From positions 3,162,001-3,226,000 of the forward strand of contig NZ_CP034450.1 of the NCBI RefSeq assembly GCF_003952505.1: a stretch of DNA of 64,000 nt, read 5' to 3'. Positions 11,852 through 48,264 of this stretch are shown here, one piece after another; the first letter of the stretch is position 1; each line of letters begins with the position of its first letter. The position numbers and the translations under genes were made by a program. The notes beneath the pieces were generated by a model, which did no database searches, was not told the DNA's origin, and was given only the letters and a program-made list of their open reading frames with translations. The stretch comes from Mesorhizobium sp. M4B.F.Ca.ET.058.02.1.1 (GTDB lineage: Bacteria; Pseudomonadota; Alphaproteobacteria; Rhizobiales; Rhizobiaceae).

Positions 11852-11860
11852 GGAAAGCCT

Positions 11861-11910
11861 TGCCTGTCCAAGGTTTCAGCGATTTCAAAGGGATGGGCTG
11901 GCGCTGCGTA
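11861..11910 (+). repeat. left att-like direct repeat (copy of tRNA-Thr 3' end and flank)
   Basis: Ungapped alignment with 28801-28850 gives 40 identities in 50. The core 11875-11908 versus 28815-28848 matches at 31 of 34, starting TTCAGCGATTTCAA and ending GCTGCG. The last bases of the right copy are the CCA, discriminator and acceptor-stem 3' strand of tRNA-Thr. The rest of the tRNA is absent here. Both copies have the same orientation, as expected for attL/attR of an element inserted at a tRNA 3' end. Confidence 0.6.
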
Positions 11911-12068: not shown

Positions 12069-12974
12069 ATGGAGATGCAGCAGGTCCGCTATTTTTTGGC
12101 CCTGTCGAATACGTTGAATTTCACCAGAGCGGCCGAGGAGTGCAACGTCACGCAGCCGGCGCTCACGCGTGCGATCAAGACGCTCGAAGAGGAATTGGGT
12201 GGAGAACTGCTTCGGCGCGAGCGCCAGCATTCGCACCTGACGGAACTCGGGCGGCGTATGCTGCCGCTTCTGCAGCAGTGCTATGATGCGGCGACGTCCG
12301 CCAAATCGCTTGCCAAGGCCGTGCAAAGCAGCGACGTCGCGCCGCTCAACGTGACGATTTCGAACAGCATCAATATTGCGCTGCTGGTTTCGCCTTTCAC
12401 GGAGCTTTTCCGGGCCTATCCAGGCGTCCACCTCAAGATCAACCGCGGCTCGCCGGCCGCCGTCATGGACGCGCTCAAGAATGGTGACGTCGAACTCGCC
12501 GTTGCCGGCCCGCTGGGGCAAGCCTGGGATCGCCTCGACATGTGGCCGCTCTTCCAGGAGGGAATCGAACTTGCTGTGAATTCCGATCACCCGCTCGCGC
12601 GGCGCAATGAGGCCGATGTCGCGTTGAACCAGCTTGCCGCGGAACCGGTGCTCAGCCGGATCGATTGGGAGACGAGCGAGGAGCTATCGCGTGGCCTGTC
12701 TGCCAAAGGCCTCACGCCTCGAACCGCGCACGAAGTCGAGACCGACCAGGATCTGCTCGCGCTGCTCGAGGCCAACGCCGGCGTAGGATTCGTCTGCCTG
12801 ACGGCACCCCGGTCGCCGAACACGCGCCGGCTCAAGCTTCGCGATCTCGATGTCTCGCGGATCGTCTCCGTCTACGCGGTTGCCGGGCGGCACAGATCTC
12901 CCGTGGCCGCGACCCTGCTCAACCTGTTGAGGTCGACGGACTGGTCGCCCTTCGGCGTCAGCGAGCCCGCCTGA
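12069..12974 (+). CDS. LysR-family transcriptional regulator (paralogue 1)
   Basis: 301 aa. The winged helix-turn-helix covers residues ~1-60 (QVRYFLALSNTLNFTRAAEE, then NVTQPALTRAIKTLEEELGG) and is followed by a periplasmic-binding-protein-like effector domain. The N-terminus is strikingly similar to the LysR proteins at 18832 and 22299, sharing FTRAAE-C-NVTQPAL-RAI and HLTELG. ATG 12069 gives the usual LysR start; the alternative ATG two codons later is also possible. It converges on the redoxin gene and the two stop regions overlap by 17 bp. Whether it controls the leftward redox cluster or the rest of the island is unknown. Confidence 0.9.
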   Translation: MEMQQVRYFLALSNTLNFTRAAEECNVTQPALTRAIKTLEEELGGELLRRERQHSHLTELGRRMLPLLQQCYDAATSAKSLAKAVQSSDVAPLNVTISNSINIALLVSPFTELFRAYPGVHLKINRGSPAAVMDALKNGDVELAVAGPLGQAWDRLDMWPLFQEGIELAVNSDHPLARRNEADVALNQLAAEPVLSRIDWETSEELSRGLSAKGLTPRTAHEVETDQDLLALLEANAGVGFVCLTAPRSPNTRRLKLRDLDVSRIVSVYAVAGRHRSPVAATLLNLLRSTDWSPFGVSEPA

Positions 12975-13662
12975 GCGCCGCGATCAGGTCGTCGATGTCC
13001 ATTCGTCGGCGGTAATCAGGATCGACAAAGCGATCGGTGATGATCCCGTCCGTTCCGACGATGAAAGTCGCGGGGATTGGCAGGAACCAACTGGCGTTGC
13101 CCTGGTAGTTTGGAAGATCGTAGGCAACGCCCATCAAGCGCTCCATCTCGGCCCCGATCCAAATCGCCAGGTTGAGGGACAGAGCGTAGCCATTGTCCAT
13201 ATCGGTCAGGAAGGGGAAGCCTGCGCCAACGGCAGCCTTCATCGCCTTGGTGAATTTGCGTCGCTCAGGCATGATCACCACGACCTGGCCGCCCAAAGCC
13301 GCGATCTCCTGCTGGGCTTCGACGATGCCGATCGCGTTCAGCCGGCAGTAGGGGCACCAATGCCCGCGCTGAAAGGTGACCACGGCGGGACCCTGGAGCA
13401 GGATGTCGGCCAGGCCAACCAGCCTGCCCTCATCGTCCGGCAGCAGGAACGGCGGCATGGCATCGCCGGGAGTTGGCGCCGCGGCTCCGGCTCCCTGTTT
13501 CTCCAGGCGATCCACAAGGCGGTCTACCGCCTCGGCGAAATTCGCGTCGATCCGTCGGACTGCCGCGGCAATCACCGCCAGCCGCTCGTTGAGAGGCGCA
13601 TCAAGTTCGACGGCTGCATGGACGGCCTGTTCAAATGTCATGGGCTGGTCGGCGGCGGCCAT
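12958..13662 (-). CDS. peroxiredoxin-like AhpC/TSA redoxin
   Basis: 234 aa thioredoxin-fold protein. The core starts near residue 65 (PGDAMPPFLLPDDEGRLVGL) and carries the active-site motif GHWCPYCRLN, placing Cys-x-x-Cys at the peroxidatic position. The N-terminal ~60 residues form a helical extension with regularly spaced Asp/Glu/Ala. The start was set at ATG 13662 (MAAADQPMTF) rather than further upstream because it matches a compact protein. It is last in a leftward cluster with a disulfide reductase, NDH-2, patatin and 3-hydroxybutyrate dehydrogenase. A function in peroxide or thiol reduction is likely; the electron donor may be the neighbouring reductase (inference). Confidence 0.85.
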   Translation of the reverse strand: MAAADQPMTFEQAVHAAVELDAPLNERLAVIAAAVRRIDANFAEAVDRLVDRLEKQGAGAAAPTPGDAMPPFLLPDDEGRLVGLADILLQGPAVVTFQRGHWCPYCRLNAIGIVEAQQEIAALGGQVVVIMPERRKFTKAMKAAVGAGFPFLTDMDNGYALSLNLAIWIGAEMERLMGVAYDLPNYQGNASWFLPIPATFIVGTDGIITDRFVDPDYRRRMDIDDLIAALRRAR

Positions 13663-13802
13663 TTCTGCGCTTTCATCGATCTGACGCAGCCTATCATCGA
13701 AGCCCCTCCGCCGCGGCCATGTTTTTCTTGCATGGTTTTGATGCCTTGCGCGCATCAAAGCGGGCGAGGTTCGTATTCTGTTCGCCGCCTGACCTCAGTT
13801 CG

Positions 13803-17773: not shown

Positions 17774-18556
17774 TCAATGGGCGGTCCAGCCGCCTTCGAT
17801 CGGCATGACTGCGCCGGTGATCGAGGCCGCTTCGTCCGAGGCTAGGAACAGGCAGAGCGCAGCAACCTGCTCCACCGTCACGAACTGCTTGGTCGGCTGC
17901 GCGGCCAAAAGCACATCCTTGATCACCTGCTGTTCGGTGATCCCGCGCGCCCTCGCGGTGTCCGGTATCTGCTTCTCGACCAGCGGGGTGAGCACGTAGC
18001 CGGGGCAAACCGCGTTGACGGTGATGCCCTGCTCGGCGACTTCCAGCGCAACCGTCTTGGTCAGGCCGGCGACACCGTGCTTGGCCGCGACGTAGGCGGA
18101 TTTGTAGGGGGAAGCGACCAGAGCGTGCGCGGAGGCGACGTTGATTATGCGACCCCATTTGCGCGCCTTCATCGCCTGCAGGGCACGCCGGATCGTATAG
18201 AAGGAAGACATGAGATCGATCGCCACGACCGCTTCCCATCTCTCGATCGGGAAGTCATCGATCGGCGCGACATGCTGAATGCCGGCGTTGTTGACCAGAA
18301 TGTCGACCGCGCCGAATTCTGCGATGGCCTTGTCCATCATCTCCGTGACGGCATCGCCCTTGCTCATGTCAGCGCCGTCATAGCGGACGGTCACACCGTG
18401 GTCGACGGCCAGTTTTTTCCGCAGCAACTCGATCTCGCCGGCATTTCCGAAACCGTTCAGAACGATGTTGCAGCCCTTGGCCGCGAAGGCTTCGGCGATG
18501 CCTTGGCCGATGCCGCTGGTCGAGCCGGTGATGAGTGCTGTCTTTCCATTGAGCAT
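17774..18556 (-). CDS. bdhA: 3-hydroxybutyrate dehydrogenase (classical SDR)
   Basis: 260 aa NAD-dependent SDR. Cofactor motif ALITGSTSGIGQGIAEAF at residues ~6-23, NNAGIQHVAPI near 90, catalytic Tyr-Lys in YKSAYVAAKHG near 155, and the BdhA-type segment AVCPGYVLTPLVEKQIPD, with the residues that orient D-3-hydroxybutyrate. It oxidises 3-hydroxybutyrate to acetoacetate. Two ATGs two codons apart are possible; the second (18556) was chosen because GAGG lies eight bases from it but only two from the first. A divergent LysR gene starts 276 bp away, the usual arrangement for a regulator and its target. Confidence 0.88.
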   Translation of the reverse strand: MLNGKTALITGSTSGIGQGIAEAFAAKGCNIVLNGFGNAGEIELLRKKLAVDHGVTVRYDGADMSKGDAVTEMMDKAIAEFGAVDILVNNAGIQHVAPIDDFPIERWEAVVAIDLMSSFYTIRRALQAMKARKWGRIINVASAHALVASPYKSAYVAAKHGVAGLTKTVALEVAEQGITVNAVCPGYVLTPLVEKQIPDTARARGITEQQVIKDVLLAAQPTKQFVTVEQVAALCLFLASDEAASITGAVMPIEGGWTAH

Positions 18557-18831
18557 CGTCATTTCCTCTTGTTTGAGCCGCGGGCGCGAATGGCCAGTGG
18601 TTGCGAGCGACGGGCTGCAGCACCCCGGCTCTGGATCTGCGGACCAGTATGGCGAGCGGCCCGAAACTGCGGAAATGCCGTTGAGACATGGATTCGATAG
18701 CCGACGGTCAGATCGTGGTCCCGCATCCGAGGTGTCGATCGACCGATCGGGTTGTTTGACGTAAGGGCAGCTAGTAAGATCATCCGGCAACGCGGGGGCG
18801 TGCGTATGCGCGTTCGGTGAGGGAGCGTGCA

Positions 18832-19808: not shown

Positions 19809-20273
19809 TCAATTCTTTCTTACCGTCGAGGTCACGGACTGGATGACCTCCGTCGCCATCTTGAACTGCGCGGTGCGGTCGGTGATGCCGTGCCGTTTGG
19901 CGATCCAGTCGAAATCGCTGTAGGCGGCGTAAACCGAACCATCGGGGGTCTGGTAGACCAGCACCCGCACCGGCCAGTCCAGGCCGGCCTCGGGATTGGA
20001 CGTGATGAAGGTAGTGCCGAGCGCCGGATTGCCGAACATCACCAGCCGGGACGGCCTGACATCGTTGCCGGCATTCTTGCCAAGCCTGGCCTGGTCGATC
20101 ACGCCGAAGAACATGATGCCCTTCTTCAGCACGTCCTTCTTGATGCGAGCTACGGTCTCGACGACGGAATAGTCGCTCTTGACCGTGACGACGCCGTCGG
20201 ATGCGGCGGCCGGAAGGGCAACCGCCATCAGCATGGCGGCGCCTGCAATCATGGTTTTCAGGTAGTTGGTCAT
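19809..20273 (-). CDS. secreted DUF302 protein
   Basis: 154 aa with an N-terminal signal peptide (TMIAGAAMLMAVALPAAASDG, cleavage near residue 23-25) and a mature DUF302 domain: VVTVKSDYSVVETVARIK at the start and VRVLVYQTPDGSVYAAYSD in the middle. DUF302 domains are small alpha-beta folds of unknown biochemical role, often near redox or metal genes. ATG 20273 has AAGGAG six bases upstream. It is the last gene of a leftward set after a cupin protein and an MFS transporter, with a 44-bp gap to the latter. Confidence 0.85.
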   Translation of the reverse strand: MTNYLKTMIAGAAMLMAVALPAAASDGVVTVKSDYSVVETVARIKKDVLKKGIMFFGVIDQARLGKNAGNDVRPSRLVMFGNPALGTTFITSNPEAGLDWPVRVLVYQTPDGSVYAAYSDFDWIAKRHGITDRTAQFKMATEVIQSVTSTVRKN

Positions 20274-20317: not shown

Positions 20318-21520
20318 TCACGTCCTCGGCGTTTGCAACATGCGCGCAGTCGCGATCGCGCCGGCGAGAACCGAGGCGAGCACACCCACGCACGCGGCCC
20401 AGCCGATACGGTCGTAGAGCTGCCCGATGATGAAGCTGCCGGCGAGCCCGCCCGCATAGTAGGACGCAAGGTAGATGCCGCTTGCGGCGGCGCGATCGCG
20501 CGAGGCGGTCCGGCTCACATGCCCGGTGGCTATCGCCTGCGCCAGGAAGGTGCCGATGGCGACCAAAGCCATCCCGGCAAGAACGACCGGGAGGCTGGCG
20601 GCGAGCAGCAGAAGCAGTCCGACGATCGCCAGCCCGAGTGTCGCTCCGATCCCTCCGCTCGGACCGAGACCTGCCGCGACGCGCCCGGCAAGCGGGGTCG
20701 TCAGCATCGAGGGCAGGAAGACGAAATAGACCGCGCCCAAGGCCATCGGTGTCAGCGACAGCGGTGTCGCAACGAGCTGGAAGTTCACATAGGTGAAGGT
20801 GCCGATGAAGACGAAAAGGATCAGGAAGCCGATCGCGAAACAGGCGCGCAGCTCGGCGTTTTGCAGCGGAGCCTTCCATGCGGCGCGGGCGGGCTCGCCC
20901 ATCCCATCGGCGCGCATCATTGCAGAGGTCTTCTGCAGTGTGAGCCAGACAAGGGCGGCGCCGAACAGATTGAGGCCGGCGAAGATCAGAAAGTTGGTGG
21001 AGATGCCGAATGTGTCGGCGACGGCGGCTGACATCAGCCGGCCGAAGAAGTTGCTGGCAACATTGCCGGTCACGTAAGCCGCAAGCGCGCTCGTCGTCTG
21101 CCGCGCGGAGAAATGCTCGGCCAGGTAGGCCATCGTCAGCGTAAAGGCGGTCGACATGCACAAGCCTTGCGCTACGCGCAGCAGGGCGAAGACCACAATG
21201 CTGTCGGTCTGTGAAAGCAACGTCGTCGGGATCGCCAAAATGGCCAGGCTGATCCAGATGCCGTTGCGGCGATCGATGCCGCGCCCGAAGAGCGCGACGG
21301 CGATACCGGCCACCGCCATGCCGAAGGTGCTGGCATTGACGGCGAAACCCATGGTTGCGCGACTGACGCCGAATCTTGCCACCAGCGAAGGCAGGATGGC
21401 CTGAGTGGCGAACAGGTCGACAAGCGTCAGAAACGCGATCAAGGCAATCAGGCCGAAGCGCCAGCTGTCCGCGGCAACCATGCGGAGCCGCCTCGGTTCG
21501 GTATGTTCACTGGACGTCAT
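20318..21520 (-). CDS. MFS transporter, drug/sugar efflux type
   Basis: 400 aa, about 12 hydrophobic helices in two halves separated by a polar loop near residue 195. Loop 2-3 carries the MFS signature in altered form (GRGIDRRNGIWIS). N-terminal LTLVDLFATQAILPSLVARF and VAQGLCMSTAFTLTMAYLAE resemble the YnfM/arabinose-efflux group (COG2814). ATG 21520 is chosen because GGAG lies seven bases upstream; the frame stays open for 11 more codons. It lies in a cupin - MFS - DUF302 unit. The substrate is unknown, and export is more likely than import. Confidence 0.85.
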   Translation of the reverse strand: MTSSEHTEPRRLRMVAADSWRFGLIALIAFLTLVDLFATQAILPSLVARFGVSRATMGFAVNASTFGMAVAGIAVALFGRGIDRRNGIWISLAILAIPTTLLSQTDSIVVFALLRVAQGLCMSTAFTLTMAYLAEHFSARQTTSALAAYVTGNVASNFFGRLMSAAVADTFGISTNFLIFAGLNLFGAALVWLTLQKTSAMMRADGMGEPARAAWKAPLQNAELRACFAIGFLILFVFIGTFTYVNFQLVATPLSLTPMALGAVYFVFLPSMLTTPLAGRVAAGLGPSGGIGATLGLAIVGLLLLLAASLPVVLAGMALVAIGTFLAQAIATGHVSRTASRDRAAASGIYLASYYAGGLAGSFIIGQLYDRIGWAACVGVLASVLAGAIATARMLQTPRT

Positions 21521-21610
21521 GTCAGGCTCCGTGGCCACACGTCCCCAGGCCATCGCCCGAGGACGCGATTTTATTGCTGATGCTGGGATCTGCTGACCGC
21601 GACGAGCGGC

Positions 21611-22111
21611 TCACATCATGTGGTCTTCGTGCATCGCAGGCGGCAGGACGTCGGCCGAATAGAGCACCGCTGGAACCTTGCCGTTGTTCTTCCACCAGTG
21701 GGCGAGCTGGCCGAACTCGGCCGTCGCGTCGCCGGCCGGATGTTCGATGCCGACCTTACAGGTGCTGCGGTATTCGGTGATCGAGCCCTCGACCACCAGA
21801 ATGTTTGCCGGGCGGACATTGTGCTCATGCCACGGCACGACGCCGCCAGGCTGAACAACGAGCTTGCGCAGGCGCAGCATGTTGCCTTTCCAGCCTTCGC
21901 CCTTGCTGCTTAAATCGATTGCGGAAAGGACCGTGTCGGTCACGCCGACCGGTTTACTGGGATGTTCCTGGATGTCGGTGGTGGCGGCCTGGCCAGCAGG
22001 GCAGTCGCCGGCGAAAACCGGAGCCACCGAGAACGCGGCGGTCGCGGTGAGAAGTCCGAGTGTCAACGCCAACTTCAGCGGCACCCGCAATGCAATAGTC
22101 TTGCAAGCCAT
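21611..22111 (-). CDS. secreted cupin-domain protein
   Basis: 166 aa with signal peptide (residues ~1-34, ending SVAPVFAGDC) and a single cupin barrel. Motif 1 is RLRKLVVQPGGVVPWHEHN, giving two of the metal-ligand histidines; VVEGSITEYR follows; motif 2 is weak, with HWWKNNGKVPAV in its place. ATG 22111 has AAGGAG eight bases upstream. The mature protein contains two Cys (DCPAG and STCKVG) that could form a disulfide in the periplasm. No enzymatic activity can be assigned. It is the first gene of the cupin-MFS-DUF302 unit, downstream of a co-oriented LysR gene. Confidence 0.82.
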   Translation of the reverse strand: MACKTIALRVPLKLALTLGLLTATAAFSVAPVFAGDCPAGQAATTDIQEHPSKPVGVTDTVLSAIDLSSKGEGWKGNMLRLRKLVVQPGGVVPWHEHNVRPANILVVEGSITEYRSTCKVGIEHPAGDATAEFGQLAHWWKNNGKVPAVLYSADVLPPAMHEDHMM

Positions 22112-22298
22112 GTCTAGTTCTCCTTTGTCGGTGCCCAATCGCGGAAGCGGGGCATGAGTGGAGAGTGACGGCAGCCTCGACGAAAGAGAAATGCTGACTG
22201 GCTCTTAATTCGATACCTGAAAACTATGATGGACAACCGCGCCAACGAGGCTGTTTCGCCACGACATTTATCGCGGCGTTAGACTTCATTTCGAATTG

Positions 22299-23213
22299 CT
22301 ACGCAGCCGTTTTCCTGGCCGGCAGATCTATGCCGCTTTCCGGCCAGCTGTGTGCCTTGACACTGTTCACGAAGGTCGAGGTCGCCGGTGAGAACCGGCG
22401 GCCCGACACGACGACCAGCGAGACCTCCCGCCAAACCTCGGGATCGATGACAGGCCTGATCTGCAAGCCCGGGATGACGGCGCTGAATTCCGGGATGAAG
22501 CAGATGCCAAGTCCACCGGAAACCATGTTCTGGATCCAGTCTTCGCGCTCGCTGGCGTAGGATATCCTGAGCTTCACACCGCGGTCATTGCAGAGACCGG
22601 CGAGGTGGTCGCGATACTCGCAATTCAACCTTCTCAGGTAGTTCTCGCCGTCGAGTTCGGAAATGGCGACATTGTCGTTGCGAGCCAGCCGGTGGCCGTT
22701 CGGGAAGGCCAGGACGAACCGCTCGCGATAGAGCGGAGTGACGTCGAAACGCTCCGGAAAACTGTTGCTGGACGCCATGATGGCGACGTCGATCTCACCC
22801 GCTTCAAGCAGTTGCGACAGCGAAGCCGGCACACCCTCCACCAGCTGCAACTGGATGCCCTGCTGGCGTCTGTTGAAATCGGCCAGCAAGCCGGTGAAGC
22901 GACGCGGACCAATGGTGCACATGACGCCAACCTTGAGATTTGCGTTTTCCAGGCAAAGGAATTTCGACGCCTCCTGGCGCACGCCGGTCACCTCGTCGAG
23001 GATCTGCTGGAACCGCGGGCGTAGCAGGGCACCCAGATCGGTAAGGTGGGTCAGGTTCCGTTCGCGGCGAAACAGCAGGCCGCCGACCTCATCCTCCAAC
23101 TGCTGGATGGCGCGCGACAGCGCTGGTTGGGTGACGTTGCATTTTTCGCCGGCGCGCGTGAAGTTCCGCGTCTCGCACACGGCCAGGAAGTAGCGGATGT
23201 GATGAATGTCCAT
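22299..23213 (-). CDS. LysR-family transcriptional regulator (paralogue 3)
   Basis: 304 aa. N-terminal HTH (HIRYFLAVCETRNFTRAGEK, NVTQPALSRAIQQLEDEVGG) closely parallels the two LysR proteins at 12069 and 18832, including RRERNLTHLTDLG. The effector domain begins LKVGVMCTIGPRRF and is collinear with paralogue 2. It lies upstream of the cupin-MFS-DUF302 set on the same strand (187-bp gap with no clear terminator) and downstream of the two small secreted-protein genes. It could regulate either side. Confidence 0.88.
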   Translation of the reverse strand: MDIHHIRYFLAVCETRNFTRAGEKCNVTQPALSRAIQQLEDEVGGLLFRRERNLTHLTDLGALLRPRFQQILDEVTGVRQEASKFLCLENANLKVGVMCTIGPRRFTGLLADFNRRQQGIQLQLVEGVPASLSQLLEAGEIDVAIMASSNSFPERFDVTPLYRERFVLAFPNGHRLARNDNVAISELDGENYLRRLNCEYRDHLAGLCNDRGVKLRISYASEREDWIQNMVSGGLGICFIPEFSAVIPGLQIRPVIDPEVWREVSLVVVSGRRFSPATSTFVNSVKAHSWPESGIDLPARKTAA

Positions 23214-23384
23214 GCCGGTTTATCCCTCTGCTGCATAGATGCATGTGCAGGTTGGAACCGTGCCGCAAACCATTCCATCACGCCAATGCATGGGGGCTAT
23301 GAAGTCGATAGCGTTTCGTCATGCGCCAATGGCGGGCCAGGGCCCGCCATCAAACCCTGCAATAGTGCTCGGCGCCCGCAAGCG

Positions 23385-23660
23385 TCAGCTGTGATGGCCC
23401 AAAGCGAAGAGCTGGGCGCAGAACTGAGCATGCGGCTTGCTCATGGCGGCGTCGTTGCATTCCTTCATCATCGCATCCTGCGTCGCCTTCGGCATGGCTT
23501 TCCACGCCGTCTCGAAGTCGGCACTCGACTTCATCGCCTTCATGCCGGAATCGGTGAAGAAGGGCTGCATGTTGGACGGTTCGTCGAGCGCGCCGGCGAA
23601 GGCAACGCCGCCGAGCTTGGAAATGGCAAAAGCACCGAGGCAGATAGCTTTTAGATTCAT
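23385..23660 (-). CDS. small secreted protein, unknown family (paralogue A)
   Basis: 91 aa. Signal peptide at residues 1-22 (CLGAFAISKLGGVAFAGALD), mature part about 69 aa, acidic to neutral. It shares with the protein at 23850 the pattern F-[FY]-T-D-x-x-M-x-[AT]-M-K, F-x-x-A-W-x-A-x-P and the block CNDAAMSKPHAQFCAQLFAL. The two cysteines sit 14 residues apart and could form a disulfide or, with the His and Met residues, bind metal (inference). ATG 23660 has AAGGAC eight bases upstream. I do not recognise the family. Confidence 0.72.
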   Translation of the reverse strand: MNLKAICLGAFAISKLGGVAFAGALDEPSNMQPFFTDSGMKAMKSSADFETAWKAMPKATQDAMMKECNDAAMSKPHAQFCAQLFALGHHS

Positions 23661-23849
23661 TTTCAAGTCCTTCTCTGATCGGGTAGTCGCCCTATCGACG
23701 ACCGTTTGACTGATTGACAGCAAGTCAGAATTTCCGAGTTCCTCATTGCTGAGTTTGATCTTGCGACGACCAGCCGGCAACCTGCCAATGCCATCTGCGT
23801 ATCGAGGTTATGCCGCGCATGCATCTCGTAGATGTCTACGGTCGCACCG

Positions 23850-24125
23850 CTAATTAGCTCCGCCCAAAGCGAGGACGTTGGCGCAGAATTGGGCGTGGGG
23901 CTTACTCATCGACGGGTCGTTGCAAGCCTTCGTCATCTTGACCCGGTCATGCTTCGGCACGGCGAACCAGGCCTTCTTGAACCCGGCCATCGGTTTCATC
24001 GTCTGCATCGTGGCGTCCGTATAGAACGTCGGCAATGCGGCGAGGTCATTGAACGGGTCAGCTGAAGCCGGGCTCGCACCAAGACCAATTGCAAGCGCAG
24101 CCACACAGACGAGTGGTCTTCTCAT
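23850..24125 (-). CDS. small secreted protein, unknown family (paralogue B)
   Basis: 91 aa, signal peptide residues 1-22 (CVAALAIGLGASPASADP). The mature protein has FYTDATMQTMKPMAGFKKAW and CNDPSMSKPHAQFCANVLAL, collinear with paralogue A; identical spacing of the two Cys, the PHAQ motif and the tryptophan argues for a tandem duplication. Two adjacent ATGs exist (24128 and 24125); the second is better spaced from AGGAGG. It is separated from paralogue A by 189 bp and is encoded on the same strand. Function unknown; export to the periplasm is likely. Confidence 0.72.
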   Translation of the reverse strand: MRRPLVCVAALAIGLGASPASADPFNDLAALPTFYTDATMQTMKPMAGFKKAWFAVPKHDRVKMTKACNDPSMSKPHAQFCANVLALGGAN

Positions 24126-24346
24126 CATTCACCTCCTGTTCCAGGCCGCGGTTCTGGCAACGATGCCAGAGTTGGTGACACGCATCGCCTGGCCTGATCG
24201 GGAGGAAGAGTGCGGCCCGAAAAGACCGGCAGCCAATGCAATCTGCCTATGGACTTCATGCCACCTTGGCATTTCGGCTGAAGAAGAAGATGCGGCAGTC
24301 TCCTCACCAGTCGCCCCGCCAGCGACTTTGGGATGGAGACCAAGAG

Positions 24347-25207
24347 ATGCACGTCCAGTCCGGAACGCGAATTGACCAGGCCATCATTCCCGGGACGCGT
24401 TCCCGGCTGGAAGAGGGGCAGTCTGTCGACATCATCCTGGCAAGTGATGCACACGGCGCCTTCGTCTGGGGCGTGCTCGACCGCCTGCTGGATGAGCCGA
24501 ACCTTGTCTTCAGCGCAGTTACAGCGTCCGGTTTCGGAGCTGTGGAGGCGGCGGTCCTGGCCTACGGCTTGAGCCTTGGCGGCCGGCGTGGCGCTCGGAT
24601 GGCGCTCACCAACTTCTGGCGGCGCGTCAGCCACGCCTCGATGTTCTCCATCGACAGAGCCAGTCTGCTTCGATCGATACTGGAACAGTCGATCGACATC
24701 GAGCAACTCCGCGACGAGCGCTGCCCGGTGAAACTCGGCGTCCTGGCCGTCAACGCCGGCACCGACGCCGTGAAGGTCTTCACAGGCGAGCAATTGTCGA
24801 TCAACGCTATCGTGGCGGCAGCCACCGTCCCGTTCCTCTCCCCGCCTGTCGAAATCGACGGCGACAGCTATTGGGGTGATGGCGAACTCTCGCAGTTGCC
24901 GCCTGCTCGGTCGCCGAAAACCAGCCATCGCCTGATCATCGCAGGTAGGCCTTCACTGTTCACGACACTATGTCCGGATCGCAGCTTCTCCTCCACCCAT
25001 TGCACGACCAAATGCGCGCCGGTTCACACCATCTTCGACAGTCAATACCGAGGTGGGGCTGCGCTCTTCGCGAGACCCTGGATCGACTGGGGTGAACTGA
25101 CTGGCATGCGTGACAGAGGTCGGCAATGTGCCGAAGGCTGGCTTGTCGCCGATCTTTTCGGCATCGACGAACGCCCAGCTGTCGGCTGCCGAGTCCAACA
25201 CATATAG
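24347..25207 (+). pseudogene. degenerate patatin-like hydrolase
   Basis: An open frame whose first ~190 residues read like a patatin with its catalytic features gone. SDAHGAFVWGVLDRLL stands where the oxyanion-hole GG-x-x-G-x-x-x-G motif belongs. TASGFGAVEAAVLAYGLSLG replaces the G-x-S-x-G elbow (no Ser in the G-x-x-x-G frame). YWGDGELSQLPP replaces the DG[GA] Asp motif. After about 24910 the family resemblance stops and the remaining ~100 codons look like accidental read-through. It could be a dead copy of a PHB-type patatin or, less likely, a non-catalytic paralogue. The functional-looking patatin at 16597 is only distantly similar. Confidence 0.5.
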
Positions 25208-25264
25208 GCGCGCCTCCCTCCCGCCTAGCAGCGTCTGCTTCGCATACTCCCGAACGCAGGCGCC

Positions 25265-25297
25265 AAGCCCTCCGGTGGCCCCGCCGGAGGGCTTTTT
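25265..25297 (+). terminator. intrinsic terminator upstream of bufferin operon
   Basis: Perfect 11-bp stem: AAGCCCTCCGG (25265-25275) and CCGGAGGGCTT (25284-25294), 8-base loop, followed by a T-run to 25297. As the left arm starts with AA, it may work in both directions. It separates the decayed patatin frame from the bufferin operon 146 bp further on. Confidence 0.75.
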
Positions 25298-25337
25298 CGC
25301 ATCGCTCTCCAGAACATAGTGGCCGCGTATCAATTCC

Positions 25338-25365
25338 ATGCCGAGACAGCATTTCAGCTCGGCAT
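25338..25365. promoter_or_regulatory. palindrome in bufferin operon leader
   Basis: ATGCCGAG (25338-25345) and CTCGGCAT (25358-25365) form a perfect 8-bp inverted repeat with a 12-base loop, 78 bp before the bufA start. It may be an operator or a leader hairpin. No recognisable -35/-10 or ECF promoter pair could be fixed next to it. Confidence 0.35.
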
Positions 25366-25442
25366 CACGATCGGAGAGAGTGCATGCAGACGGGCCCTGC
25401 AGGCCGGTCTTTCCCTCGAAACACCAACCAGGAGACAAGCCT

Positions 25443-25712
25443 GTGATCAACACCAAGACCCTCATCGGATCGGCCCTCGCGGCCGCCACTTCGCTCGCCG
25501 CGACGGCGGCCTACAGCGGTCCCTCCGCCAAGCCCGGCTTCGCCTTCGAGAAGTGCTACGGCGTCGTCAAGGCCGGCCAGAACGACTGCCAGACCGCGAC
25601 GCATTCATGCGCCGGCACCGCAACCACCGACAATCAGCCGGATTCCTGGCTCTACGTGCCCGCAGGCAGCTGCGCCAAGATCACCGGCGGCAGCGACAAG
25701 CCGAAAGCCTGA
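25443..25712 (+). CDS. bufA: bufferin precursor peptide (DUF2282, BufA1-like)
   Basis: 89 aa. Signal peptide (residues 1-24: [20 protein letters not shown]), then a short mature peptide with four cysteines in the DUF2282 pattern: [27 protein letters not shown] and VPAGSCAKI. In described bufferins, cysteines are converted by the BufB/BufC enzyme pair to 5-thiooxazole-type heterocycles that bind copper in the periplasm; modification here is inferred from the family and the adjacent bufB and bufC. GTG 25443 is the start: AGGAGA lies about eight bases upstream and the signal peptide begins there. It is the first gene of the operon. Confidence 0.88.
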
Positions 25713-25755
25713 ACGATCCAGACTTCGAACCGACCCTCTTGAATGGAGCAGACCG

Positions 25756-26790
25756 ATGTCCCGTGCGTTTCAGCCCCTCGCGATCCCCGCATCAGCGGGC
25801 ATCGGTCTTCGCTCCCCCCACATCTCGGAGATGCTGACGCGACGGCCCTCCGCCGGCTGGCTCGAAGTTCATGCCGAGAACTACATGGGAGACGGCGCCT
25901 GCGTCGAGGCGCTAGAGCGGCTGCGTGAGATCTACCCGCTCTCGGTGCATGGCGTTGGCCTGTCGCTCGGCAGCGCGCGGGGAGTTGACCGTGCCCATCT
26001 GGAGCGCCTGCGCAAGGTCTGCGCGCGCTTCCAACCCGATCTGGTCTCGGAGCATCTCGCCTGGAGCGTTGCCGACGGCGCCTATCTCAACGATCTCTTG
26101 CCGCTGCGCTATGACGAAGAGGCGCTGGCCGTCGTTGCCCGCAATGTCGAGACCGTCCAGGACACGCTGAAGCGGCAGGTGCTCATCGAGAACCTGTCGG
26201 CCTATCTGGCCTTTGCGGACTCCTCGATGAATGAGGCCGAATTCCTGGCCGAGCTGGTGGCTAGAACAGGCTGCGGCCTGCTGCTGGACGTCAACAACGT
26301 CCAGGTTTCGGCGCACAATTTGCAGTATGACGCCAAAGCCTTCATCGATGCGCTGCCGGCCGACGCGATCGGCGAAATCCATCTTGCCGGCCACGCGATC
26401 AATCAGGTCGGTGCCGACACCGTGCTCATCGACGACCATGGCTCGCGGGTGCCGCCGGTCGTCTGGGCGCTCTACCAGCATGCCGTGGGCCGGCTCGGAC
26501 CGCGCCCGACGTTGATCGAATGGGACACCGACGTTCCCGTTCTCGACGTGCTGCTTGGCGAAGCGATGTGGGCCGACATGCTGACCGCCTCGATCATGTT
26601 CAACCGTCGGCAGGTTGCGAGACGCAACCAAACGACCGAAGCCCGGTCGGCGCCCATCCGCCTTTCTCTCGAAGGTGAAACGACGACCAGCATGCCGGTG
26701 CTTGCGGCGTTTGCCGCTGCCAGAGCCGCCAGGCCGTCCATGTCCGCAGCGTTGCCGTCAATTGAGGAGGAATACCATGCTGCCGCTTGA
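25756..26790 (+). CDS. bufB: DUF692 multinuclear iron oxidase (MNIO), BufB/MbnB family
   Basis: 344 aa TIM-barrel enzyme of the MNIO family, which uses a multi-iron centre and O2 to rearrange peptide cysteines. Visible family motifs: GIGLRSPH, WLEVHAENYM, VHGVGLSLG (His ligand), VSEHLAW (Glu/His), LIENLSAYL, LLLDVNNVQVSAHN (Asp/Asn/His), IHLAGH, LIDDHG and TLIEWDTDVP. The core ends near residue 285; about 55 further residues, rich in Ala, Arg, Thr and Ser, form an extension. It starts 43 bp after the precursor gene, overlaps bufC by 14 bp, and would act on BufA in the cytoplasm before export. Confidence 0.92.
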   Translation: MSRAFQPLAIPASAGIGLRSPHISEMLTRRPSAGWLEVHAENYMGDGACVEALERLREIYPLSVHGVGLSLGSARGVDRAHLERLRKVCARFQPDLVSEHLAWSVADGAYLNDLLPLRYDEEALAVVARNVETVQDTLKRQVLIENLSAYLAFADSSMNEAEFLAELVARTGCGLLLDVNNVQVSAHNLQYDAKAFIDALPADAIGEIHLAGHAINQVGADTVLIDDHGSRVPPVVWALYQHAVGRLGPRPTLIEWDTDVPVLDVLLGEAMWADMLTASIMFNRRQVARRNQTTEARSAPIRLSLEGETTTSMPVLAAFAAARAARPSMSAALPSIEEEYHAAA

Positions 26791-27562
26791 ACTCCTGCAG
26801 ACCACCCTGGCGCGATCGGTGCTCGCCATGGAACCAGTCGCAGCCGCAAATGTGCTGACCGCCGGCAGGGCCGATCCGTTGGCCCGCCTGCGCATCTACC
26901 AGAACAACACGCGCAGTTCGCTGACCGCGGCGCTGATGGCGGCTTTTCCCGTCACCGTCCGGCTGGTAGACGAACGCTTCTTCCGTTATGTGGCGAGCGA
27001 GTTCATTCGACGCCACCCGCCGGTTGAATCCCGTCTTTCGCGCTATGGGGCCGGCTTCCCGCGCTTCCTGAAGACGATCGACACGCTGTCTGACATGCCG
27101 ATCGTCGCCGAAACGGCGCGGCTCGAATGGGCCATAGCGGAGGCACTCGATACGGCTTCGCTGCCGCCCCGCAGCCTCGCAGAATACGACAACACCGACC
27201 TCGGGTCCTCGCCGGATATCCTGCTCCAGCCTTCACTGCGGCTGATCGTCTCGCACTGGTCGATCCTGTCGGTATGGATGGCGCATCAACAGGAGACGGC
27301 GGCCGACGAAAGCACTACCTGGACAAGGCGTCCCGAACGTGTGGCGTTGTGGCGATCGGGGAACTACGTGCGGCTTTTTCTGCTCGACCGCGCGAGCTTC
27401 GCCTTCTGGCATTCGCTGAAACACGGTCTCGGCCTCGAGCATGCCACTGGCCGTGCCCTGGCTCTCGACCCGACCTTCGACCTGGTTTCCGCCCTTATGC
27501 GTCTGTTCCGCGACAGGCTCGTCACCAACGTGCGAGTCGCCGCGAATTCCCCCTCAAATTGA
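26777..27562 (+). CDS. bufC: DUF2063 protein, BufC-type MNIO partner
   Basis: 261 aa. The N-terminal DUF2063 domain (residues ~5-100) has LARLRIYQNNTRSSLTAAL followed by AAFPVTVRLVDERFFRYVA, the usual helical start of MbnC/BufC-like partners; the C-terminal half includes GNYVRLFLLDRASFAFW. Such proteins recruit the leader of the precursor to the MNIO enzyme. ATG 26777 is fixed by GAGGAGG seven bases upstream and lies inside the end of bufB. Its TGA overlaps an ATG of the DoxX frame. Confidence 0.88.
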   Translation: MLPLELLQTTLARSVLAMEPVAAANVLTAGRADPLARLRIYQNNTRSSLTAALMAAFPVTVRLVDERFFRYVASEFIRRHPPVESRLSRYGAGFPRFLKTIDTLSDMPIVAETARLEWAIAEALDTASLPPRSLAEYDNTDLGSSPDILLQPSLRLIVSHWSILSVWMAHQQETAADESTTWTRRPERVALWRSGNYVRLFLLDRASFAFWHSLKHGLGLEHATGRALALDPTFDLVSALMRLFRDRLVTNVRVAANSPSN

Positions 27563-27573
27563 TGGAGATGGTC

Positions 27574-28050
27574 ATGACCGCAATATCCGAACACTCCTCG
27601 TCCAACCCGGCCGGCTTTGTCGGCTTCTACAAGCGTATCATCAAGCTTCCCGAACACATTCCGTTTTCGCTGGTCCAACTCGCCGCACGCGTCGCGGTCG
27701 CGCATGTCTTCTGGCAGTCCGCGCAGACGAAGCTCGTATCCTGGCCGGTGACGCTGCAGCTTTTCGCCAACGAATACAATCTGCCGTTCATCGACCCGTC
27801 GATCGCGGCGCTACTGGCCACGGCGGCTGAACTGACGGGCTCGGTGTTGATATTCCTCGGGCTGTTTTCGCGCCTCGCTGCCCTGATGCTGATCGGCGTC
27901 GTCTCCGTCATCCAGATCTTCGTCTATCCGGAGAACTGGGCGGAGCACCTGCTATGGGCGTCGTTGCTGCTGCTCGTGCTGGCACGCGGCGCCGGTGTGT
28001 TCTCGCTAGACTATGTCGCGGCGCGGGTTCTCTCGGCGCCTGGAAGGTGA
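27574..28050 (+). CDS. DoxX-family membrane protein of the bufferin operon
   Basis: 158 aa, four hydrophobic segments (QLAARVAVAHVFWQSAQTKL, LLATAAELTGSVLIFLGLFS, LAALMLIGVVSVIQIFV, LLWASLLLLVLARGAGVFSL). DoxX members are small inner-membrane proteins, commonly the last gene of DUF2282-DUF692-DUF2063 operons; the role is unknown but probably redox-linked. Three in-frame ATGs are available (27562, 27568, 27574); 27574 is best spaced from GGAG, while 27562 overlaps the bufC stop as TGATG. The operon ends here, followed by a decayed gene. Confidence 0.85.
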   Translation: MTAISEHSSSNPAGFVGFYKRIIKLPEHIPFSLVQLAARVAVAHVFWQSAQTKLVSWPVTLQLFANEYNLPFIDPSIAALLATAAELTGSVLIFLGLFSRLAALMLIGVVSVIQIFVYPENWAEHLLWASLLLLVLARGAGVFSLDYVAARVLSAPGR

Positions 28051-28074
28051 ACATTCCGACCGAGGGGGAAAAGC

Positions 28075-28782
28075 ACGGCGCGCATCTTCATCGATCACGC
28101 CCACCCCGAGCCCAACAGCTTCAACGGCGCCCTGACCCGCGCCGCACAGGGTTGTCTGCGGCGGGACACGAAGTTGTTGTCTCAGATCTCTATGCTATCG
28201 GCTTCAACCCAATATCAGATCGTCGCAACTTCACGACGATACGCGACGCAAACTACTACCGTCAGCAGTCTGAGGAGGCGAACGCGGCTGCCCATGACGG
28301 GTTCGCGCCGGACATCCAGGCGGAGATGGGCAAGCTTTTCTGGTGCGACGCCTTGATCCTGCAGTTCCCGCTCTGGTGGTTCGGGCTGCCGGCGATCCTC
28401 AAGGGCTGGGTTGACCGAGTGTTCGCGTCCCGGCGGCCGCATCTATGGCGGCGGCAAATGCTATGATCGCAGCGTCTTTGCGGGAAAACGAGCGATGTGT
28501 TCCGTCACCATCGGCGGACCGCCGCCGATCTATTCAGGCTGTGGACTGAACGGCCCAATCTCGGAGATCCTGTTCCCGTCAACCACGGAATGCTCCATTT
28601 TTGTAGGCTTCACGGTTATCGAGCCTTTCCTTGTGCACGCACCAGCGCGCATCAGCGACGGTGAACGCCAGAGGTGGCTCGATCGTTACCGCGAATGCGT
28701 CCTCAGCCTCGCGAATGCTCCGACGATCACGCATCCGAAGCTCGCGGACTTCGACGACGCCCATGTCCTGAAATCGGTGTGA
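28075..28782 (+). pseudogene. decayed NAD(P)H:quinone oxidoreductase (flavodoxin-like fold)
   Basis: The frame begins GEAK-T-ARIFIDHAHPEPNSFNGALTRA with ACG at 28075 where the ATG should be, after a good GGGGGA ribosome-binding sequence. The frame shifts near 28143 to GHEVVVSDLYAIGFNPISDR and continues through FPLWWFGLPAILKGWVDRVFA. It shifts again near 28432 to GRIYGGGKCYDRSVFAGKRA and runs to 28782. Together these segments make a nearly full-length NQO/MdaB-like FMN protein (~235 aa). Two indels and a lost start make this a genuine pseudogene rather than a single sequencing error. It is directly inside the tRNA end of the island. Confidence 0.82.
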
Positions 28783-28800
28783 AAGATGGGCACAAGCCCT

Positions 28801-28838
28801 TGCATGTCAAGGACTTCAGCGATTTCAATGGGATAGGC

Positions 28839-28850
<12 letters not shown>
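28801..28850 (+). repeat. right att-like direct repeat at tRNA-Thr 3' end
   Basis: Right partner of 11861-11910 (40/50 identities; core 31/34). It spans the last bases of the acceptor stem, the encoded CCA, and about 38 bp downstream of the tRNA. It is the presumed original attachment site. Confidence 0.55.
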
Positions 28851-28913
<63 letters not shown>

Positions 28914-33771: not shown

Positions 33772-33822
33772 CCGGAGTCGGATGATTTCCGGTCGGTTCG
33801 GCCGGAAATCATCCGACTCCGG
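33772..33822. repeat. 21-bp perfect inverted repeat
   Basis: Arms 33772-33792 and 33802-33822 are perfect reverse complements over 21 bp (CCGGAGTCGG...TTTCCGG), loop TCGGTTCGG. It lies in the 197-bp spacer between the phosphatase and infA, beside a second palindrome. It would form a very stable cruciform or mRNA hairpin and could terminate the hisD operon, but no U-run follows. Confidence 0.7.
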
Positions 33823-47199: not shown

Positions 47200-47921
47200 T
47201 CAGGGCTTAGCAGCAATCAGAACATAACCCCGCGTGCGGTTAGCATTGTCCGAGTCTTGCGTGTTCATTGCGTTAAATAGGTCGGCTGTCGTCACCCAGA
47301 CGGGGGATATTTGTACCGAGCAACGTCGAGGATGAGGAAACGGTCGGTCTCGGCATCATAAGCGGCCAAGGGTGAGATGTGGCCGCCTTTTTCCTGACCC
47401 ATGGCTTTGCGCAAGTAATTGACGATGACAAAGTGCCTTTTGGTCGCGAGATAGCCTCGGACCTCCTTGCGGAAGGTGTCCATGCTGCTGTCGGCAGCAT
47501 GTCGCACCTCAACCTGCACGGGCTGCAACGCAAGAAGGCCACCCAATTCATCTAAAGTCATGCCCTGCTTTTTGATTGTCTCAGCCGGAATGACCTGCTC
47601 GCTGCGGGCATCCAGAAGATTGTCCTGAGTGAAGGTGCTGTAGGGGTCATACTCGGGCACCGGTGGGGCTGGAACGCCAATGGCATTCAGAACCATGACA
47701 CTGCTGGCCACCCCACAAAAAGCTTGGTTCTTCTGGGTGACGAAATTTATGGCCAGCGTAAAATAGGCTTCGCGGGCATCGGCCTCGATCAAGAGCGCTT
47801 CACCGGCATCGGAAGCCGCCCCGATGAGATTTGCCGGCAGCGGCAGCGTCTCGGCTCTGGCCTCCATCGAGGCCAATAACGTGGCAAGCAATGCGAGTCG
47901 AATGACATGCTTCATGAACAT
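47200..47921 (-). pseudogene. secreted phytochelatin synthase-like peptidase, late single-base frameshift
   Basis: Papain-like C83 family; bacterial members cleave glutathione and some make phytochelatin. Signal peptide (VIRLALLATLLASMEARAET). Catalytic triad: Cys in KNQAFCGVASSVMVLNA, His in EKGGHISPLAAYD, Asp in FLILDVARYKYPP. The frame then ends early (stop at 47292), but after one inserted base in the GGGGG run at 47302-47306 it reads VWVTTADLFNAMNTQDSDNA and GYVLIAAKP to a stop at 47200, the normal family C-terminus. Without repair only ~30 residues are lost after the triad, so activity might survive. ATG 47921 has GAGGAG eight bases upstream. Confidence 0.85.
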
Positions 47922-48264
47922 CGTCGCGCTCCTCGGCTGATCACCCTTCGGCCTGACAAACTTGCTCCCAAGTCTCGCAGCTGTCCAGACGAGCTTCGGC
48001 GCCATGAGAGCCATCTGTGACCCCTGATGTCAGCGAACGGCGAAGACGGCGGCCGATGGCGTGAAGGCGAAGGTGAGCGAAAGGCTGACGGCGATCAGCG
48101 TCCGGCGGTGAGATGCATGGCGGGGACTCCGGGGCGTGGGGGACGCCTAGGAAAGACCCTTGGAGCGCGATAGTCCAATAACAATTGAATAATCGAAACG
48201 GCCCGCTTACCCCGCCTCCGCTGCGGTCTTTGTCCGAAGGATAGGAAATGCCCAAGCTCAGTGC

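Follow-up and report, generated by a model that had tools for sequence, protein, structure and literature searches.

The bufferin operon and its predicted chemistry

The window, a stretch of 64,000 nucleotides of Mesorhizobium sp. M4B.F.Ca.ET.058.02.1.1 (contig NZ_CP034450.1, positions 3,162,001 to 3,226,000), carries an operon for a bufferin, a predicted copper-buffering, ribosomally synthesised and post-translationally modified peptide (RiPP). The operon is preceded by a putative LysR-type operator array and lies in a block of ~17 kb, here called the island. Its genes are as follows.

25443..25712, + strand: bufA, Buf1/DUF2282 bufferin precursor (PF10048, 91 bits, cut-off 22.4; four cysteines in the sequence)
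25756..26790, + strand: bufB, multinuclear non-haem iron-dependent oxidative (MNIO) bufferin maturase with a rhizobial C-terminal tail (PF05114, 339.5 bits; NF050167; 3bww)
26777..27562, + strand: bufC, DUF2063 partner with a RiPP recognition element (DUF2063-RRE, PME-type 1; PF09836, 68.6 bits; model matches 8hci, 8hi7 and 3dee)
27562..28050, + strand: doxX (PF07681, 56.8 bits, cut-off 23.6)

A sequence-only reading had placed a bufferin-type operon here (precursor, MNIO enzyme, overlapping DUF2063 partner and DoxX), and the genes passed curated family cut-offs, including that for DUF2063 (27.2) and, in a profile search, that of the NCBIfam model NF050167 MNIO_BufB (366.7 bits, cut-off 310). 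The precursor was also rightly read as a DUF2282 protein with four cysteines: bufA begins with GTG and encodes 89 amino acids with cysteines at positions 38, 49, 56 and 77, and the N-terminus resembles, by eye, a Sec signal. The order, bufABC and then doxX, is that expected for a Buf1 bufferin biosynthetic gene cluster, and the start of bufC overlaps the end of bufB, as does the start of doxX the stop of bufC. Among NCBIfam models, BufA scored below the Buf2 cut-off (28.5 vs 60), BufC failed HvfC and DoxX failed HvfX, which fits a Buf1 operon. The 6.46-Mb single-contig genome was found to hold a sole DUF2282 gene and a sole MNIO gene, namely bufA and bufB. Judged from its sequence, this is a real, canonical and intact-looking Buf1 bufferin operon. 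Two further open reading frames (ORFs) were rejected: one from 25338, in frame with bufA, as an N-terminal extension, because leader indels between species are not divisible by three, and one on the reverse strand (24968-25489), which had no family match and whose apparent conservation follows the overlapping patatin-like gene, operator and bufA.

BufB residues 14-269 aligned with the MNIO structure 3bww, with weaker matches to TglH and MbnB. The earlier claim that the DUF692 metal-ligand motifs are retained held when the ligands were checked for substitution on alignment: N180, N181, D226, H228, E255 and D257, in motifs LDVNN, DDHG and IEWD, were invariant in 40/40 aligned BufB sequences. HvfB variants at N175, D242 and H244 are described as inactive (PMC13419390); by motif reading, these positions would correspond to BufB N180/N181, D226 and H228. 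At the sequence level BufC matched nothing in the PDB. Its AlphaFold2 model (43 sequences, pLDDT 75.8, residues 1-33 poor), compared with the PDB, gave three matches within E 0.001, all at E 1e-4 or better (query TM ~0.53): 8hci and 8hi7 (TglHI complexes, chain A in each) and NGO1945 (3dee), the last of which is given as the reference fold for PME-type 1 partners (PMC12452194).

The C-terminal extension of BufB, previously put at ~55 residues and thought distinctive of this locus, does exist, but it extends ~70 residues past the Pfam domain (~50 past the last long predicted helix) and is no peculiarity of the locus, as 119 of the best 120 BufB matches listed are 333-344 amino acids long. Mean column conservation was 0.55 in the tail vs 0.87 in the core, and in the BufB model (40 sequences, pLDDT 73.5) the tail was mostly poorly predicted except for a short low-confidence helix (314-324) that coincides with the sole conserved tail motif (MPVLAAFAA-like). 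We rejected the tail as a special domain because it is common to the listed relatives, is of low conservation and has only this short motif standing out; by its sequence it is a lineage trait, common to rhizobial relatives.

Thousands of such bufferins have been reported (PMC12452194), and Buf1 peptides are described as carrying Cys-derived thiooxazoles at the central cysteines and binding Cu in the periplasm (PMC12452194, PMC13097082). Modification of BufA and its copper binding are predictions from the family: BufC would present the substrate, BufB would oxidise the central BufA cysteines to 5-thiooxazoles, and BufA, exported by Sec, would buffer periplasmic copper and perhaps other soft metals. 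The bufferin 1 operon of Caulobacter (CC3254-CC3257), as described, has the same precursor-MNIO-DUF2063-DoxX order and likewise a DUF2282 precursor (PMC12452194, PMC3511200), and the same chemistry may be expected here.

A LysR-type array shared by six island promoters

The array was found at the following places.

25316..25352, + strand: LysR-type operator array before bufA (exact match to ATRS-N7-SYAT-N7-ATRS-N7-SYAT)
24236..24272, + strand: array between the gene for small protein 23850 and the patatin-like gene (exact)
23788..23824, + strand: array before the gene for small protein 23385 (exact)
23286..23322, + strand: array before the LysR gene lysR22299 (1 mismatch)
22191..22227, + strand: array before the cupin and major facilitator superfamily (MFS) genes (1 mismatch)
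13719..13755, + strand: array at the 5' side of the AhpC/TSA peroxiredoxin gene (1 mismatch)

The bufA array lies 91-127 bp ahead of the bufA start and consists of four quarter sites at 11-bp steps, i.e. two adjacent T-N11-A dyads. We take these dyads to be LysR boxes and their spacing to be that of an OxyR site; OxyR operators presumably likewise have four quarter sites at 11-bp steps, with quarter-site letters that differ from those of the array. Alignment of 15 same-genus 5' regions revealed a near-invariant leader block, the literal 21-bp form of which (R at one position) was present in 40 stretches of GTDB species genomes, with bufA ~100 bp downstream in 40/40; all these relatives are labelled Mesorhizobium, bar two named at higher rank only. 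The literal block is not a many-copy motif, with one other match in the genome (3 mismatches), and three of its matches with 2-3 mismatches in other genera (G145, G124 and G223) are the bufA arrays of loci L204, L205 and L210. Comparison with other island promoters showed the block to be a portion of the larger array pattern, which was derived by visual comparison of four promoters, those of bufA, the patatin-like gene, lysR22299 and lysR18817/bdhA, and scanned afterwards.

At ≤2 mismatches the window contained 6 matches, all in the island and 3 of them exact, compared with a shuffle mean of 0.62 and a maximum of 4 in 100 shuffles; three of the six (peroxiredoxin, cupin and small protein 23385) were not among the pattern-defining promoters. 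When 125 spacer combinations were scanned in the island, only 7-7-7 yielded 6 matches (3 exact), the runner-up giving 3 (0 exact). Eleven other islands had 58 matches at ≤1 mismatch, all at the same six places (bufA 11, patatin-like 11, cupin 11, peroxiredoxin 11, lysR22299 10, small protein 4); the rest of these 11 x 19.9 kb was free of matches, and 346,784 bp of same-genus control DNA contained 0. A diverged same-genus locus (G016) had two arrays only, at lysR22299 and bufA. The array was exact in 40/41 leaders; over those 40, quarter-site columns were 0.997 and spacers 0.914 conserved.

A match to BufA at 1e-8 or better was present in 201/394 genomes of the family. The group at ≥66% identity (E 1.5e-37 or better) takes in 12 genomes from outside the genus, representing 7 genera; beyond it, the first match listed has E 3.8e-18, with identities ≤56% among the matches listed. 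In 12/12 of these other-genus genomes a lysR22299 orthologue (74-81%) lay near bufA with an adjoining array (11 exact, 1 with one mismatch), and an array (≤1 mismatch) preceded bufA in 9/12, exactly in 5. The gene bdhA and a patatin gene stood between lysR and bufA in 11/12 loci, and an NDH-like gene (30-34% identity) followed doxX in 10/12, the other two contigs ending early. Two extra one-mismatch array matches lay away from these promoters (L204 and L210).

Published controls of buf-type operons in alphaproteobacteria are, in the accounts available (PMC3511200, PMC6180224), extracytoplasmic function (ECF) sigma factors: C. crescentus sigma-F is reported to control a buf-type operon, with the motif GTAACC-N16-CGAA (PMC3511200), and S. 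meliloti RpoE7 (ECF16) the buf-like operon SMb20530-SMb20527, likewise a rhizobial operon with DUF692 and DUF2063 genes (PMC6180224). The latter is described with an adjacent ECF sigma gene and a GTAAC-type promoter (PMC6180224), whereas the Mesorhizobium locus has neither; the absence of a linked ECF sigma or anti-sigma gene, already remarked on from the letters alone, was confirmed, with no sigma or NrsF gene among the island genes. Allowing the first hexamer ≤1 mismatch and a spacer of 15-18, we found the sigma-F motif in 0/15 island-type bufA upstream regions (the window and L031-L044) and in 4/4 classical same-genus regions (L045-L048). Within the genus, array and sigma-F signatures are mutually exclusive (19 loci examined). 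Among 24 classical or distant buf loci there was one array match, and 7 of the 21 scanned for sigma-F had that motif, 13/21 showing neither signature. Compared with Caulobacter and its sigma-F/NrsF control, the locus thus has no sigma-F motif, a LysR-type array, no linked sigma or anti-sigma gene, an island setting and a longer BufB tail. We found no literature on LysR control of DUF692, DUF2282 or bufferin operons, judging by titles and abstract openings.

The one distant array match (L066:1712-1748) is exact and lies 132 bp ahead of the bufA of a distant locus, from a different family of the order, with a LysR gene and a peroxiredoxin gene as neighbours; this hints that LysR-linked bufferins are not confined to this lineage. 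In the window, a conserved stretch at ~18640-18780, between the 3-hydroxybutyrate dehydrogenase gene and lysR18817, is array-like with three mismatches. A terminator-like hairpin seen by eye at ~25268-25297 was not returned by a consensus scan and is not claimed.

The island, its borders and its other genes

The following features mark the borders of the island.

11857..11910, strand not assigned: left att-like repeat (core 11875-11908; longer extent by eye)
28797..28848, strand not assigned: right att-like repeat, overlapping the 3' end of tRNA-Thr
28839-28913, − strand: tRNA-Thr, at the right border

The sequence at 11875-11908 recurs at 28815-28848 (34 nt, 91%, E 4e-7), so that imperfect direct repeats enclose ~17 kb, and the right copy includes ten bases at the 3' end of tRNA-Thr. 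Preserved murA synteny in several relatives had initially been a reason to doubt the island, which was reinstated on the direct repeat. Insertion of a ~17-kb block at the tRNA-Thr 3' end is supported by these sequence features. The accessory region proposed earlier as tRNA-flanked stands as an island, bordered not by tRNA-Phe but by tRNA-Thr and the direct repeat near 11.9 kb; the phytochelatin synthase gene remarked on elsewhere in the window (47292-48014) is unlinked, ~18 kb outside.

The patatin-buf block was present in 14/37 same-genus genomes (13 relatives and the source genome), G016 carrying a diverged version. Upstream gene order was read in eleven relatives (L161-L171, matches >50% identity): lysR12069, ndh, patatin 2, MFS, cupin, lysR22299 and the patatin-like gene kept the same order in 11/11, lysR18817 was present in 10/11 and a Gor-like gene in 7/11. 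Of these 11 stretches 10 took in bufA; the eleventh, L165, stops short of it, and the bufA of that relative is found in L037. Left of the block, 3/12 other loci had an att-like copy (24-63 nt). tRNA-Thr and murA were kept both in 14 genomes that lack the block next to murA, one of which has a classical buf operon at another place, and in four whose buf block is elsewhere; in none of these was an island gene found at ≥45% identity in the 5.6 to 18.6 kb covered on the left side. The buf block and murA are ~21 kb apart in G010, ~325 kb in G003 and ~56 kb in G007, as expected for an insertion hotspot. The genes of the window's left flank were absent beside tRNA-Thr in the 18 stretches examined, which leaves no clean empty site, and the tRNA-Thr looks like a hotspot with several insertions. 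There was no integrase among the Pfam matches of the scanned island ORFs, a scan that did not include a dedicated integrase search.

Other genes of the window are listed below.

12958..13758, − strand: AhpC/TSA peroxiredoxin (PF00578, 60.6 bits; longest ORF, true start probably further in)
17774-18559, − strand: 3-hydroxybutyrate dehydrogenase gene
20318-21553, − strand: MFS transporter (with the cupin gene spans 20318..22138)
21611-22138, − strand: cupin (match under the cut-off, 25.2 vs 27.2)
22299..23213, − strand: lysR22299, candidate regulator of the LysR family (PF00126, PF03466; 4x6g)
24344..25207, + strand: patatin-like gene without the usual catalytic motifs (PF01734, 28.5 bits, cut-off 27.7)
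47292-48014, − strand: phytochelatin synthase (PF05023, 206 bits)

In the patatin-like gene the motifs GGGAHG and TSAGA were replaced in 11/11 Mesorhizobium island copies found by text search (14 searched), whereas both were kept in G016 and in 11/11 patatin copies from other genera; the loci concerned are the window, L031-L044 and L204-L214. Crude ratios of nonsynonymous to synonymous substitution (dN/dS) against the source genome were 0.28 for the patatin-like gene (35 pairs kept) and 0.14 for bufB (38 pairs kept). The former value points to a conserved pseudo-enzyme rather than a decaying gene, and the sequences thus suggest a pseudo-enzyme that is maintained in the Mesorhizobium island. 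A few relatives have a stop or frame break near the start of this gene, the true start of which is probably further in.

A DUF302 gene (19809-20273, − strand) follows the MFS gene and probably belongs to the cupin-MFS operon. Two related small proteins (23385-23780 and 23850-24128, − strand) have a signal-like N-terminus and a conserved CND..MSKPHAQFC; neither matches a Pfam family, and each has an array ahead of it. After doxX, at ~28060-28780, comes a gene for a flavodoxin-like NAD(P)H oxidoreductase that is spread over two frames here and contiguous in several relatives. Outside the island, an inverted repeat at 33772-33822 is near-perfect, its 24-nt arms separated by 3 nt.

Control of the operon and its meaning

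Taken together, we consider it probable that a Buf1 copper buffer has moved from ECF-sigma control to an island LysR stress regulon. The genes, the repeats, the arrays with their conservation and the same-genus exclusion of sigma-F motifs are observed, whereas the DNA binding, the choice of LysR, the signal (redox or copper) and the chemistry belong to an inferred mechanism. In it, an island LysR-type regulator, with lysR22299 as best candidate, would bind the two adjacent T-N11-A dyads ahead of bufA and govern it in place of sigma-F/NrsF (ECF16). Besides bufA, this regulator would have under its control the gene that encodes it, the peroxiredoxin gene, the cupin-MFS and small-protein genes and the patatin-like gene. 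A peroxiredoxin gene among the likely array targets is a point of likeness to an OxyR regulon, from which this one would differ in including the bufferin operon.

The best solved relative of the lysR22299 product was OxyR (4x6g, 102 bits). Among 120 homologues, C99 and C198 were invariant, C238 was present in 119 and C208 in 93. In the 4x6g alignment, we take C208 to fall on OxyR C208 and C198 to lie one residue before OxyR C199 (OxyR position names). Several homologues carry the database label hydrogen peroxide-inducible genes activator, which is a label and not a test.

Several observations weigh against this interpretation. The lysR22299 product scored under the OxyR equivalog cut-off (124.3 vs 329 bits), and its top NCBIfam score, to CidR, was likewise under the cut-off. 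The array pattern was drawn by eye from four island promoters, one of which, lysR18817/bdhA, then exceeded the mismatch limit. The third spacer was as conserved as the quarter sites (0.996), beyond what a LysR protein needs, and a consensus scan found no sigma-70-type promoter downstream of the array. Among individual loci, L169 lacks the lysR22299 array, the bufA array of L131 carries a one-base insertion, bufA is not preceded by an array in L213 and L214, and the single array of L203, an exact one, lies between bufA and lysR. Moreover, the presence of three LysR genes in the island means that assignment to lysR22299 rests on synteny.

Alternatively, the arrays might serve one of the other two island LysR proteins (12069 or 18817) or a chromosomal one such as OxyR. 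The three LysR genes in the island would fit that explanation, as would L066, with a lysR12069 relative (39%) and a peroxiredoxin gene beside a bufA with an exact array. However, the conserved neighbour is a lysR22299 orthologue in G016 and in 12/12 other-genus loci, in none of which an orthologue of lysR12069 or lysR18817 was the best match, and arrays adjoin lysR22299 itself; we therefore regard another LysR as unlikely.

Still less probable is that the operon remains under a sigma-F/NrsF-type ECF factor acting in trans, with the LysR array secondary. The precedents in C. crescentus and S. meliloti (PMC3511200, PMC6180224) would favour such control, and the genome does contain an ECF-NrsF pair: the one NrsF found is ~2.2 Mb away and adjoins an unlinked ECF sigma gene, itself preceded by the sigma-F motif. 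However, NrsF was found in 34/37 same-genus genomes, that is, in nearly all regardless of the island, and the GTAACC-N15-18-CGAA signature separates classical from island-type operons of the genus completely, as given above. Finally, that the leader is conserved as something else, such as an RNA element, and resembles an array by accident is very improbable: the near-invariant third spacer and a leader hairpin at 25387-25411 (pairing in 96% of cells, 20 of 41 leaders) would fit, but the hairpin showed no double changes and no covariation beyond shuffles in those leaders, and the spaced quarter sites recur at six transcription units of the island and are missing from 347 kb of control DNA.

Beyond LysR control as such, we tentatively propose, as a possibility somewhat short of even, that this lineage of rhizobial bufferin operons passed as a whole from ECF-sigma control into the regulon of a dedicated LysR that is OxyR-like and rich in cysteine. 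Bufferin would there act in a response to thiol/oxidant stress of which copper is one aspect, and not in a purely metal-sensed one. Such a regulon would couple a copper-binding thiooxazole peptide to a transporter, a hydroxybutyrate dehydrogenase and a patatin (in Mesorhizobium reduced to a pseudo-enzyme), plus the island peroxiredoxin.

By itself the bufferin operon is ordinary; what this locus adds is comparative evidence for a LysR-type operator over six island transcription units, kept across genera, that appears to replace the sigma-F promoter. Bufferins and their captophorin relatives rank among the most widespread RiPP metallophores, and the array offers a simple DNA signature by which bufferin operons can be sorted according to their mode of control. 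If true, LysR wiring of this conserved kind would put a name to the regulator, define its exact operator and identify the co-regulated genes, and roles of bufferins besides copper buffering would become directly testable in soil symbionts that are harmless.

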